The notes below the pieces were generated by a model. The model searched no databases and had not been told where the DNA came from. It saw only the letters and a program-made list of their open reading frames with translations. A program made the position numbers and the translations under genes. 64,000 nucleotides of DNA from Prevotella sp. MGM1 (GTDB lineage: Bacteria; Bacteroidota; Bacteroidia; Bacteroidales; Bacteroidaceae): positions 124,001 to 188,000 of the forward strand of contig NZ_BEWV01000136.1 of the NCBI RefSeq assembly GCF_002933775.1, given 5' to 3'. Below, one piece after another: positions 45,131 to 50,760 of this stretch; positions within the stretch are counted from its first letter, which is position 1, and each line of letters begins with the position of its first letter.

Positions 45131-45214
45131 TGATTTGTGTCAATGTATTGTTGTGTCAAGCGCATAATGGCAGTGAGCGGTGATAATTTAGTGTAGAACG
45201 GAACATATATAAAC

Positions 45215-45257
45215 CCACAGCCGCACTTCAAATAAAGATTTTGAAGTGCGGCTGTGG
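45215..45257. terminator. Perfect 18-bp hairpin, shared terminator
   Basis: Arms 45215-45232 and 45240-45257 are exact complements (CCACAGCCGCACTTCAAA) with a 7-base loop. It lies between the rightward FadL-like gene and the leftward PqqD gene and can serve both. Confidence 0.82.
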
Positions 45258-45275
45258 ATTTTGGTTGAAATGTTA

Positions 45276-45542
45276 TTATTCTATTATTCCGGCTTCATGC
45301 CATTTTAATATCATGGCTTCAACATCTTTTTGAGCGGTTGGCTGTTCCACATCGTATTCCTTGGTTAGCAACAGCACAAGTTCGTCTGTCGTGAATTCAC
45401 GGCCTTGAACTTGTTGCCACAGGTACGCGGCGGTCTCGTTCATGCTTATTATCTTGCTGAAATCGATATTCTCTTTTCCCTCGGCCACGATGATATGCTC
45501 ACCGCAAATTGTGCGCAGATTAAATCCTTTCTTCGTTATCAT
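45276..45542 (-). CDS. PqqD-like peptide-binding protein (RiPP recognition element fold)
   Basis: 88 residues. The pattern FNLRTICGEHIIVAEGKENID, SMNETAAYLWQQVQGREFTTDELVLLL and DVEAMILKWHEAGIIE matches the PqqD family, a small winged-helix fold that binds leader peptides of ribosomally made natural products. It ends a leftward string behind an S24/S26 peptidase (gap 16 bases) and an HPr-kinase-like gene. No radical SAM, cyclase or obvious precursor gene is next to it. The family call is good; its partner peptide is unknown. Confidence 0.82.
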   Translation of the reverse strand: MITKKGFNLRTICGEHIIVAEGKENIDFSKIISMNETAAYLWQQVQGREFTTDELVLLLTKEYDVEQPTAQKDVEAMILKWHEAGIIE

Positions 45543-45558
45543 AATATTAATTGACTTA

Positions 45559-46011
45559 TTATTGTTTTATGAATAAATGCCTGTGTAAGTACAGTAGGTA
45601 TCGGCGGATAGGGTAGAGGCGTGTCCATAGCCATGAGTATATTAGCCATTTTGTTCCGTTGGTGTAATCCGCTGTGATTTTGTTCTTACGATAAAAACCT
45701 ACGGCAGTGGCTTTGATATCATCCAGATGGCAGTATTCCACTCCCAGATTTCCGTCTCCGCGGAGAGTGGCTACATCGTCGTAAATATTTACTATGCGGT
45801 GGAGCACAAAATTACCCTCACTGATTTCCGCCAGAACAACATCGCCGGCTTTTGCCTTTTTTGCTTTCGTTAGGATGGCTTTATCACGTCCGTCTTCAAG
45901 AAACGGCCTCATACTGTATCCGCGTAATGGTAATGTGACGGTGTGCCCGGCTTCTATAATCTTAATGACTTCTGGTATAAATGTCGCATTTGGCATTTGT
46001 TTTGTTGTCAT
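45559..46011 (-). CDS. S24/S26 family peptidase with Ser-His arrangement
   Basis: 150 residues. The nucleophile motif is RGYSMRPFL (Ser33) and the second catalytic site reads FVLHRIVNI (His71), as in archaeal/ER-type signal peptidases that use histidine in place of lysine; GDVVL and GDGN complete the fold. There is no N-terminal membrane helix, but the C-terminal 30 residues are aromatic and basic and could touch the membrane. With PqqD and an HPr-kinase-like neighbour, a role in trimming a leader peptide is plausible but unproven. Confidence 0.8.
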   Translation of the reverse strand: MTTKQMPNATFIPEVIKIIEAGHTVTLPLRGYSMRPFLEDGRDKAILTKAKKAKAGDVVLAEISEGNFVLHRIVNIYDDVATLRGDGNLGVEYCHLDDIKATAVGFYRKNKITADYTNGTKWLIYSWLWTRLYPIRRYLLYLHRHLFIKQ

Positions 46012-46231
46012 AAGGCTGTTTCTTTCATGTTTTGTCTGTTTGTTATTTAGTGCTTGTCGGATATATGTTGGCGAACATTTGGCATTCTGTTGATTTATTA
46101 CGATTTTCTTTATTGCCCTTTATTCTGTTAGCGGTTTCTGTTTGTTTAAATACATTGTTGCCTTTATTCAAATAACTGTTCCTTATTCGTTTGATTGACA
46201 ATCTGTTTGCTTATATATGATAAATTACTTT
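46012..46231. other. 220-bp gap inside the PqqD cassette
   Basis: AT-rich. On the operon strand the longest ATG frames are only 11 to 12 codons and none has a Shine-Dalgarno sequence, so no precursor peptide is visible. No hairpin terminator or exact TAnnTTTG box was found, leaving it open whether the peptidase and PqqD genes have their own promoter. Confidence 0.5.
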
Positions 46232-47125
46232 TTAGGAGCCGCTTCCAGCTATTCCTTTATGACAGACCAGGGCTGCTTCTTTATCAGGCAGGCAGTGCAT
46301 GGTGAACATCGGCACTGTTTCGACAAGTCGGGTGATTATGTTACAGATATTATTATAAATAATGCTGTCCCATTTCATTGAAGAGCATTGAGGGAGCATT
46401 GATGCAAATGCCTGAACTGGGCGTAGCCTTTCTATACGGTTTGCGGGTGCCCGGTCAATTCTTGTTACAGCTCCCAAGGGCGCTTTTATATCTTTATAAC
46501 ACGGAGTCTTGCCGCTCCATGGTGAACCGTATAGGAATGGTTTACCATCAATAATTCTTATTATGGGATTGTCATCATTCATTAATTCCGTGTCTTGGAT
46601 ATGCTTCAGCCACAGGCTTGAATGGGTGCTTTTACCGGTTCCGCTCTTGGCAATGAAAGGATAGGCATAGCCGCTGTGGCTAACGCATGATGCATGGATT
46701 AGAAGTGTGTCTTGATGACTGCCCCGGAACGCGAAAATCAACATAAGGGCATCATTTAATCCAAAACTGCGCATTGTCGCCGTCCCGTTCAATGCGCAGG
46801 TGCACAGGCTGAAGTCTTTGTTTGTGTGCAGTAAACAGCACGGATTATTGTATATGTCTTTTATGATATACTGATAGCCGCCGTCAGGCAGTGTATATAC
46901 CAAAGTATCTCCGTTGCCGGTGTCACATTTCTTTATAAGCTCTTTTTCCTGTGCCGGCTGCAGATTGTCGTCTACCGTGAGGGTAAACAACAGACAATCC
47001 GTTTCCGGCTGTTCGGTTTCAAAAACGGAGAAAGAAGGCAGCAAAGAAATGCTGTTTTGGTTTGAGTTTTCAAAAACTATGGATATATAAAAGTCCGCGA
47101 TACGGAAGAAGTGCCGCTTTTTCAT
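46232..47125 (-). CDS. HPr-kinase/PEPCK-like kinase
   Basis: 297 residues. The C-terminal half has the HprK fold: HASCVSHSG (144-152), Walker A AKSGTGKST (159-167), ELMNDDNPII and YGSPWSGKTPC (199-209). The N-terminal half (1-130) is a divergent beta-rich domain. Relatives include the kinases of lasso-peptide clusters, which phosphorylate precursor C-termini, and HprK proper; no HPr is nearby. Its ATG overlaps the stop of the secreted 144-residue protein (ATGA), so translation is coupled. Substrate unknown. Confidence 0.78.
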   Translation of the reverse strand: MKKRHFFRIADFYISIVFENSNQNSISLLPSFSVFETEQPETDCLLFTLTVDDNLQPAQEKELIKKCDTGNGDTLVYTLPDGGYQYIIKDIYNNPCCLLHTNKDFSLCTCALNGTATMRSFGLNDALMLIFAFRGSHQDTLLIHASCVSHSGYAYPFIAKSGTGKSTHSSLWLKHIQDTELMNDDNPIIRIIDGKPFLYGSPWSGKTPCYKDIKAPLGAVTRIDRAPANRIERLRPVQAFASMLPQCSSMKWDSIIYNNICNIITRLVETVPMFTMHCLPDKEAALVCHKGIAGSGS

Positions 47126-47556
47126 TCTACTTCTTCTATGCTCATGTCAATCCCTTTGAATTTGAATTCGCCTGTTTCCAGAAAACGAACATCAAACGGA
47201 GTCTTGGCTTTGACGGTATATTTGTTTTTCAATTTTATCAGTTTTTTCTCCACATCCTTTTTCTTTTGTCCGAAGAATACCACGCATGTTCTTGCCGGCA
47301 TATTCTTCTGTTGGGCGAAGTAATTCTTTAACTGATAAGAGTAGTTGTCACGACCGAGCAGGAATTTGCTTTTTGTGTCGATCCAAACGCTATCTACCGT
47401 TTGTACATTCGTAAAGTAAACGACCGAGTCTGTAAATGCGGCAGAAAAGCCGAACATGTATGCCTTTGGCAGCATTTTTTTCTTTGCGGAAACCTCTCCC
47501 ACGAAAAAAAATGGGATTAACATTGCCGCAATTGTAACGTATTTAAGTGATTTCAT
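47122..47556 (-). CDS. Secreted 144-residue protein of unknown function
   Basis: 144 residues with a signal peptide (MKSLKYVTIAAMLIPFFFVGEVSA). The mature part is lysine-rich with a beta-alpha look (AYMFGFSAAFTDSVVYFTNV, CVVFFGQKKKDVEKKL) and ends in acidic MSIEEVE. It starts 7 bases after the rpoD stop and overlaps the HPr-kinase-like gene by 4 bases, so it links the sigma factor to the cassette. I recall similar hypothetical proteins beside rpoD in Bacteroidales, but cannot verify this. Confidence 0.72.
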   Translation of the reverse strand: MKSLKYVTIAAMLIPFFFVGEVSAKKKMLPKAYMFGFSAAFTDSVVYFTNVQTVDSVWIDTKSKFLLGRDNYSYQLKNYFAQQKNMPARTCVVFFGQKKKDVEKKLIKLKNKYTVKAKTPFDVRFLETGEFKFKGIDMSIEEVE

Positions 47557-47563
47557 TATTCTT

Positions 47564-48427
47564 TTATTGTCCTAAATATGATTTTAACAGTATATTATTC
47601 GTATTATTTCTCAATTGCCTGATGGCTTTCTCCTTTATCTGTCGCACACGTTCTCGTGTAAGTCCGTATTTTATTCCTATCTCATCGAGGGTCATTTCAT
47701 TCATGTTAATGCCGAAAAAAGCTTTGAGGATGTTACTTTCCTTTTCACTCAGACATTTCAGAATTTCGTTTATTTCCGTGCGTAACGATTCCGCTACCAG
47801 CTCTTTGTCTGCCATTGTCGAGTCGTTAGAGGCCATAGTATCGAGCAGTGTGTTCTCTTCTCCATCCGTGAACGGGGCATCTACCGATACATGATGGCTG
47901 CCGGCCGTCAGGACATCGTTTATTTTGTCTTGTGGCATGTCTGTCCTTTCTGATATTTCTTCTGCCGAAGGCCGTCTTTCAAACTCTTGTTCGAATTTGT
48001 TCAACTCCTTGTTTATCTTGTTTACCGAGCCGATTTGGTTCAAAGGCAACCTCACCATTCTGCTCTGTTCCGCGATGGCTTGAAGTATGCTTTGGCGTAT
48101 CCACCACACAGCGTATGATATGAACTTAAATCCCCGTGTCTCGTCAAACTTCTCCGCGGCTTTTATCAGTCCTACGTTACCTTCGTTTATGAGATCGGGC
48201 AGACTCAGACCTTGATTTTGATATTGTTTTGCCACGGACACGACAAACCTCAGATTGGCTTTTACAAGTCTTTCGAGCGCTTTTCTGTCACCGTCATGGA
48301 TACGTCTTGCGAGTTCCACTTCCTCATCGACCGATACCAGTTCCTCGCGACCTATTTCTTGAAGATATTTGTCGAGAGTGACATTGTCTCTATTGGTGAT
48401 AGACTTGTTTATTTTTAGTTGTCTCAT
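47564..48427 (-). CDS. rpoD: Primary RNA polymerase sigma factor (sigma-ABfr type)
   Basis: 287 residues, short because the long region 1.1 of E. coli sigma-70 is missing, as in Bacteroidetes. Region 1.2 to 2: [56 protein letters not shown] and [15 protein letters not shown]. Region 3: [14 protein letters not shown]. Region 4.2 helix-turn-helix: [27 protein letters not shown]. It directs transcription from the TAnnTTTG promoters seen throughout the window. Four small genes follow on the same strand with 7 bases or overlap at first. Confidence 0.97.
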
Positions 48428-48450: not shown

Positions 48451-48458
48451 CAAAGTTA
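48451..48458 (-). promoter_or_regulatory. -7 box (TAACTTTG) for rpoD
   Basis: Exact consensus on the minus strand followed by CATC, 23 bases from the rpoD start. Confidence 0.7.
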
Positions 48459-50387: not shown

Positions 50388-50760
50388 GAAAGCAGTGCTC
50401 CGGTCTGTCGCCGGCACCGTCATTGGTGCGGGAGGAAAGTCCGGGCAGCGTAGGGCGCTCAGCTTCCGAAAACAGAAGCCATTGGCGACAGTGGGATATG
50501 GCAGAAGAGAATGACCGCCGCGCCGAAAGGGGCGGTAAGGGTGAGAAGGTGGTGTAAGAGACTACCGGCCGGCGGGTGATCGTCGGGCCGTGCCATCCTG
50601 AGGCTGCAAGTTCGCGTATACCGTCGTTTGAGGGTTGCCCGCCCGAAAATATCCGACGGAGGGTAGAATGCTTGAGCCGCGTGGTGACATGCGGATTAGA
50701 TAAATGACGGACACCGCTGTATGGTGGTACAGAACCCGGCTTATAGGGGCAGTGCTTTCT
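50388..50760 (+). ncRNA. rnpB: RNase P RNA (bacterial type A)
   Basis: About 373 bases with the universal conserved blocks in order: GAGGAAAGTCCGGGC (P4 5' strand and CR-I, about 50430-50445), GGTGAGAAGGTG, AAGAGACTACCGGC (CR-II), GAGGCTGCAAGTTCG, and AGATAAATGACGG followed by ACAGAACCCGGCTTAT (CR-V, P4 3' strand, about 50698-50745). The ends GAAAGCA and TGCTTTC pair as P1. It is the catalytic RNA that removes tRNA 5' leaders. The ends are estimated from P1 and the promoter. Confidence 0.96.

Follow-up and report, generated by a model that had tools for sequence, protein, structure and literature searches.

The locus analyzed here raises the question of why genes for a kinase, a peptidase, and a PqqD-type protein follow a gene for an RpoD-class sigma factor in Prevotella sp. 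MGM1. The locus lies in a stretch of 64,000 nucleotides (the window; contig NZ_BEWV01000136.1, positions 124,001 to 188,000), and the initial annotation of the window had likened the three proteins to parts of a ribosomal-peptide modification system. Comparison across genomes indicated that the three genes, hereafter called the kit, are a real conserved unit. In Bacteroidota, the kit is predicted to correspond to the core of the linear polyphosphorylated peptide (LPP) clusters, such as lpp of Paenibacillus alginolyticus, which were described in 2026 as restricted to Bacillota, patchy in occurrence, and of unknown role (PMC13381572). The genes of the kit are listed below; in the labels used throughout, G### is a genome, L### is a locus, and G000 is the genome containing the window.

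46232..47125, minus strand: predicted HprK/PEPCK-fold peptide kinase gene, LppK-like (297 amino acids)
45559..46011, minus strand: predicted S24/S26-type Ser-His-Asp leader peptidase gene, LppS-like (150 amino acids)
45276..45542, minus strand: predicted gene for a PqqD-type discrete recognition element (RRE) for ribosomally synthesized and post-translationally modified peptides (RiPPs), LppB-like (88 amino acids)

Conservation of the kit and its key residues

Co-occurrence across genomes had been named beforehand as a test of the grouping. The kinase or a relative was present in 122 of the 151 sampled genomes of the family, and PqqD was found in all 122; PqqD occurred alone in three genomes (G044, G085, and G097), the kinase alone in none, and neither in 26 (compared by hand). 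This distribution supports the initial proposal that kinase, leader-type peptidase, and PqqD form one group corresponding to the core of a ribosomal-peptide maturation pathway. PqqD was retained even where it was unlinked from the kinase, at a distance of 37 kb in G122 and 164 kb in G108. Of 40 kinase places in 37 genomes, selected to cover different genera, 37 had the peptidase and 36 had PqqD. Among 80 named loci, which are the best 80 of a scan and hence biased to close relatives, and some of which are truncated at the end of a contig, 79 had the peptidase and 75 had PqqD. A phylum-wide search of 296 genomes, in which no more than eight candidates were scored for each genome, found the kinase in at least 12. 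The identical gene order was found again in many genomes, and the arrangement is therefore not due to chance.

The kinase had no match in Pfam and a weak one to HprK_rel_A in NCBIfam (E 0.02). Its predicted model (predicted local distance difference test score of 94.9) has the PEPCK/HprK fold and was superposed on PEPCK over 243 residues (Z 14.7, root-mean-square deviation 4.3) and matched to the HPr kinase 1knx (Foldseek E 2e-5), while a sequence search of the PDB with the kinase profile returned ABC proteins and one PEPCK (E 0.025). The P-loop and the NDD and G-x-PWSGK motifs were invariant or almost so in the 35 relatives aligned (of 41), and the nearest named relative among the matches listed was from Prevotella sp. 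RGIG8660, with 82% identity. The HPr-rel-A system (NCBIfam TIGR04352), which also includes a PqqD partner, has an HprK-related kinase as well; the kinase of the kit scored 14 bits against the TIGR04352 model, the cut-off of which is 200.

The peptidase scored 20.4 bits against PF00717, under the cut-off of 23.3, and its family assignment is thus based here on sub-threshold matches; a relative in L143 clears this cut-off. Residues S33, H71, and D86 were invariant in all 30 relatives aligned (of 38). In LppS, changing S29, H68, or D93 abolished cleavage (PMC13381572). PqqD matched PF05402 at 1.3e-18, and its residues N35, Y63, and D73 were invariant in all 27 relatives aligned (of 37). It was aligned by HMMER to the LppB chain 9x8z_B with a weak E value of 0.042 and the same residue types opposite, and these residues were equated with N33, Y60, and D70 of LppB by spacing. 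LppB, the RRE of LPP biosynthesis, holds the YxxP leader by its tyrosine and proline kink through N33 and D70, and has Y60 in the wall of the pocket (PMC13381572).

As far as the sections of PMC13381572 used here describe the LPP system, the kit thus shares with it an HprK-like kinase, recognized by fold and invariant motifs, a SipW-like leader peptidase with a Ser-His-Asp triad, and a discrete RRE in which Asn and Asp hold a YxxP leader. Both cores are without a cyclase: none was noticed beside the kit, no genome-wide search for a cyclase having been made. Unlike LPP, which is patchy in Bacillota, the kit belongs to Bacteroidota and is common across a whole family. It also differs in that its exporter is mostly unlinked and the nucleotidyltransferases of its own genome are unlinked, and in that it often stands behind an rpoD-type gene. 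In the literature searched, the term linear polyphosphorylated peptide was found only in PMC13381572, and no description of a Bacteroidota kinase/peptidase/PqqD system was found. The sections consulted of a survey of Bacteroidales RiPPs (PMC10352776) do not mention S24 or signal peptidases, and their kinase passages concern histidine kinases.

Exporter, proposed pathway, and candidate precursors

LPP clusters also hold an MsbA-like exporter and an uncharacterised nucleotidyltransferase, according to the sections of PMC13381572 used here; both were found in the genome of strain MGM1, unlinked to the kit, and in operon forms with the kit in relatives. The dedicated ATP-binding cassette (ABC) exporter gene of strain MGM1 lies behind an NAD kinase gene (G000:C84). 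Among the loci compared, the exporter family scored at least 324 bits and the next ABC protein at most 132, and the best matches over the 151 genomes were either at least 235 or at most 171 bits. At E<=1e-60, exporter and kinase occurred together in 112 genomes, the kinase only in 10, the exporter only in 2, and neither in 27 (by hand). The status of the two was concordant in 52 of the 58 genomes of eight varying genera, which was matched by 2 of 200,000 within-genus shuffles. In 27 of these 112 genomes, exporter and kinase genes lay no more than about 4 kb apart (by eye). A run of kinase, peptidase, PqqD, and exporter was repeated, with some losses and rearrangements, in 25 exporter-linked loci, 20 of which had been chosen for an exporter near the kinase and five of which came from an earlier set. 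A PF14907-type nucleotidyltransferase was found in seven of these loci, six times by BLAST and once as a fusion to the peptidase (L143, Paludibacteraceae; 135.5 bits for PF14907 and 25.1 bits for PF00717). The genome of strain MGM1 has four PF14907 genes, none adjoining the kit. Since exporter and nucleotidyltransferase are also encoded in this genome, every core enzyme and the exporter of LPP have a predicted counterpart here, partly in trans.

These results suggest that the kinase, the peptidase, and PqqD probably, although by no means certainly, make up the core machinery of an LPP-like system for peptide maturation that works in trans. We infer substrate, phosphorylation, cleavage, and export as follows. 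PqqD would bind small precursor peptides by their Y..P (YxxP) leader, and the kinase would phosphorylate the serine of an A-x-S stretch located some 19–20 residues past the tyrosine. Removal of the leader would fall to the Ser-His-Asp peptidase, and release of an acidic product to the dedicated ABC exporter encoded elsewhere in the genome. The precursors would be encoded away from the kit, often directly behind large secreted proteins. A wider version of this proposal, which we regard as conceivable but somewhat doubtful, is that one machine of kinase, RRE, peptidase, and exporter, common in Prevotella and its relatives, serves many unlinked two-gene units of a secreted protein and a phosphopeptide. 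That most genomes of the family have the kit, with its components dispersed through the genome, suggests that peptide phosphorylation has a permanent role in the cell. The proposed system names candidate substrates and would account for small genes that lack annotation and follow genes for secreted proteins; such dispersed systems can be overlooked by cluster-based mining (cf. the sections consulted of PMC10352776).

The initial annotation had reported no precursor. This held for the window, in which none was noticed, so that the in-cluster consensus precursor of LPP has no equivalent there; candidates were found elsewhere. The candidates are small acidic peptides with the pattern MKKYxKP...[LM]LAxS. 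Small same-strand frames were catalogued near 25 exporter-bearing loci, and at least two had a Y..P start. Both are on the same strand as a complete kit, one (L275) lying 16 bases behind the exporter gene and the other (L281) 294 bases in front of the gene for the nucleotidyltransferase. Motif scans, which gave 18 matches over the loci and 8 in reversed sequence, added one candidate in L139 and two in L048. A profile of five seeds, all found before any peptide from strain MGM1, selected one of 8,175 small frames of this genome, of which 0.797 Mb (27%) was scanned (27.6 bits, E 8.4e-7); the best of 20 shuffled decoy sets reached 12.5 bits and the reversed set 8.3 bits. The selected peptide, MKKYIKPEIEVCVLNVENCLLAASDP...FDLWADDEE, is encoded at G000:C203:28162-28338, with a purine-rich stretch upstream of its start and a hairpin downstream (by eye). 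Weaker relatives were found with the same profile in L280 (15.9 bits) and in P. nigrescens (two peptides, 17.0 and 13.6 bits). An eight-seed profile, which gave 31.5 bits for the peptide of strain MGM1, was set aside because three of its seeds came from a profile that already included this peptide and because its alignment was made manually; the five-seed profile is the fair test. From the table of 12 peptides, L050:5754-5951 (8.8 bits with the eight-seed profile) was left out, and the L141 peptide (14.0 bits) was retained.

In the 12 tabled peptides, if the 15 residues after the tyrosine are disregarded, the next serine comes 19 or 20 residues from the tyrosine; the corresponding spacing in LPP is 18 by the numbering in PMC13381572. 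Seven of the 12 (L312, L054, L141, L279, L280, L326, and L327) stand directly behind a long frame ending Y.L.G...G-x-Y-I...K, the L281 peptide stands behind the same ending truncated at a contig end, and the L139 peptide stands behind the ending without a long frame (by eye). The pattern for this ending was devised after examples were known. Under a loose rule, a Y..P peptide came next behind 8 of 25 frames with the ending versus 258 of 2,522 other long frames; among the eight, L279 and L284 have the same peptide, and the L326 and L327 loci had been chosen because of the peptide. One of the two frames with the ending in strain MGM1 has a Y..P peptide next. The ending, unnamed by Pfam and NCBIfam, presumably resembles the tails of type IX secretion system cargo.

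Inspection by eye showed no precursor near any of the four PF14907 genes, near the PqqD genes that are unlinked in G122 and G108, or near the exporter gene in strain MGM1 and in two of six other genomes. A plasmid collection gave matches in two Prevotella nigrescens records and no others (E 0.05 and 0.8), and none for two other peptides; a phage search gave none, and no peptide above decoys was present in a 50-kb portion of a P. nigrescens record. As a separate observation, two similar small frames without Y..P lie directly before the kinase gene in L269 (7245-7430) and L283 (7004-7213), where no peptidase was found; they are possibly a second precursor type.

Weighing of the proposal and its rivals

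Several observations weigh against an LPP-like system working in trans. The count of 122 kinase-positive genomes takes in relatives in polysaccharide loci. Ten kinase-positive genomes lacked the exporter at E<=1e-60 in a scan that scored nine candidates per genome, and five exporter-positive genomes were borderline at 235–251 bits. In strain MGM1, a single candidate precursor was found in the 27% of the genome scanned, and in 0.463 Mb (26%) of the kit-bearing replicon of Prevotella sp. oral taxon 299, none scored above decoys (decoy 14.0 bits); both genomes scanned at length for peptides are kit-bearing. The motif scan of the MGM1 genome gave 1 strict match versus 2 in reversed sequence and 11 loose matches versus 48, and thus the motif alone proves nothing. 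The L054, L279, and L141 peptides resemble the other candidates and follow similar proteins, and they scored 9–10 bits with the five-seed profile, which is the noise level. The LPP leader consensus YxxPxVLxHQxIxFETxxS is unmatched, and the candidates share with it only Y..P and a serine at a similar distance.

The kit could instead modify a peptide linked to capsule or exopolysaccharide export, in which case the YxKP peptides would be unrelated. Kinase relatives lie within polysaccharide clusters in L047, L050, and L052, as do three of strain MGM1's four PF14907 genes (by eye), and the sections of PMC13381572 used here likewise place LPP clusters in capsule loci. However, polysaccharide genes did not recur in the neighbor lists of the sigma-linked form of the kit, and the YxKP peptides of L275 and L281 adjoin complete kits; we consider this explanation unlikely. 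Far less probable is a regulatory role for the kit within the sigma operon, with the sigma factor or the 144-residue secreted protein encoded in it as the target of kinase and peptidase. The linkage is frequent, with the secreted protein in 73 and the sigma factor in 53 of the 80 named loci, and L119 and L149 each encode an in-frame fusion of a sigma-like domain with the secreted protein. Against this, sigma and secreted-protein genes occur together without the kit in G009, G149, G105, G011, G075, and G108, and the kit occurs with neither nearby in L037, L051, L053, L054, L068, L069, and L143. We are not aware of any function that an RRE would have in a sigma regulatory module.

The explanation to which we give the least weight, by a small step, is a lasso-peptide pathway minus its cyclase, the kit being a relic or serving a lasso cluster elsewhere. 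Lasso RREs were the solved relatives closest to PqqD by sequence (TfuB1, E 3e-6), and rumen lasso clusters contain HprK kinases and PqqD, according to the sections consulted of PMC7533575. Paeninodin-type phosphorylated lasso peptides share with the kit an HprK-type kinase and a discrete RRE (described in PMC13381572). In contrast to that pathway, the kit has a peptidase of another class, the signal-peptidase type, and its RRE keeps the Tyr-type residues (Asn and Asp). The active-site residues are invariant in all three families of the kit, which argues against a relic.

The sigma operon and its neighborhood

The other features of the locus are as follows.

47564..48427, minus strand: gene for an RpoD-class sigma factor (287 amino acids), judged a neighbor
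47122..47556, minus strand: gene for the secreted 144-amino-acid protein, which accompanies the sigma gene and is regarded as a neighbor outside the pathway
48451..48458, minus strand: TAACTTTG box upstream of the sigma gene, a pattern match only
45213..45259: bidirectional terminator-like hairpin (18–20 pairs, 10 G-C), closing the operon and a convergent PorV-like gene

The positions of the open reading frames bore out the initial description of five genes on one strand, with their coordinates, a gap of 7 bases between the sigma and secreted-protein genes, and an overlap of 4 bases between the secreted-protein and kinase genes. A 220-base gap separates the kinase and peptidase genes and had been passed over there. 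We take the TAACTTTG at 48458-48451 to be a Bacteroidetes-type box. Between it and the end of the PqqD gene, one further minus-strand TANNTTTG lies within the peptidase gene, and the two remaining minus-strand terminator-like sites are short and both within the kinase gene. A single transcript across the five genes is plausible on these signals.

The sigma factor and the secreted protein are best regarded, from their distribution, as neighbors and not parts of the kit. The secreted protein, which the initial annotation had counted as a member, was found in 147 of the 151 genomes, including kit-less ones, and this marks it as a neighbor. It also stands behind an rpoD-type gene at kit-less places, about 90 bases apart in kit-less G009. 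Its 30 aligned relatives look secreted (by eye), and it had no PDB match by sequence or fold (best Foldseek E 0.73, VIA Z 4.0). As a substrate or pathway member it was excluded, because its relatives look secreted and it occurs without the kit.

A tie to the housekeeping sigma factor had also been suggested, and it was not sustained. A same-strand sigma frame lay within 6 kb of the kit in the 53 named loci mentioned above (five short, one fused), so the link is common and not obligatory. All four Pfam regions of the operon sigma factor (r1.2, r2, r3, and r4) scored above cut-off, and it is neither the single nor the most conserved RpoD-class sigma factor of its genome. A second one (G000:C206:80709-81578, L168) is 64% identical to it, and a short third RpoD-type frame (G000:C125:63063-63740, L169) lies beside S1-like repeats (by eye). 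Among nine genomes of the genus, the second showed the higher conservation in 27 of 36 pairs, including all eight pairs with strain MGM1, and the operon sigma factor in the other nine; the mean identities were 86.9% for the second and 76.1% for the operon copy. In a midpoint-rooted tree, operon sigma factors grouped with the single sigma factor of most other genomes (99/97), and the second type formed a separate clade (100/99) with the single sigma factor of G023, G061, G082, and G125; in G022, G047, G087, and G127, the operon sigma factor was the sole match. Tree and conservation together suggest that the operon sigma factor descends from the common rpoD and that the main role may have passed to the second copy in this genus.

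In the fusions of L119 (8877-9941) and L149 (8871-9944), a short sigma-70-like domain with regions 2 and 4 and no match to region 3 is in frame with a 144-residue-type secreted protein whose signal peptide and body are kept, which would yield a membrane-tethered sigma factor. At other loci, the kit stands not in a sigma operon and instead behind a Mur ligase gene (L051, L053, L054, L125, L129, and L138; murF-like, checked in L053). A gene for a clostripain-family secreted protease lies between the secreted-protein and kinase genes in L040-L044, L121, L128, L133, L140, and L150, and one for a clostripain-family protease lies downstream of the kit in L088 (PF03415 in L041). Elsewhere in the window, positions 50392-50759 correspond to bacterial RNase P RNA class A (198.5 bits).

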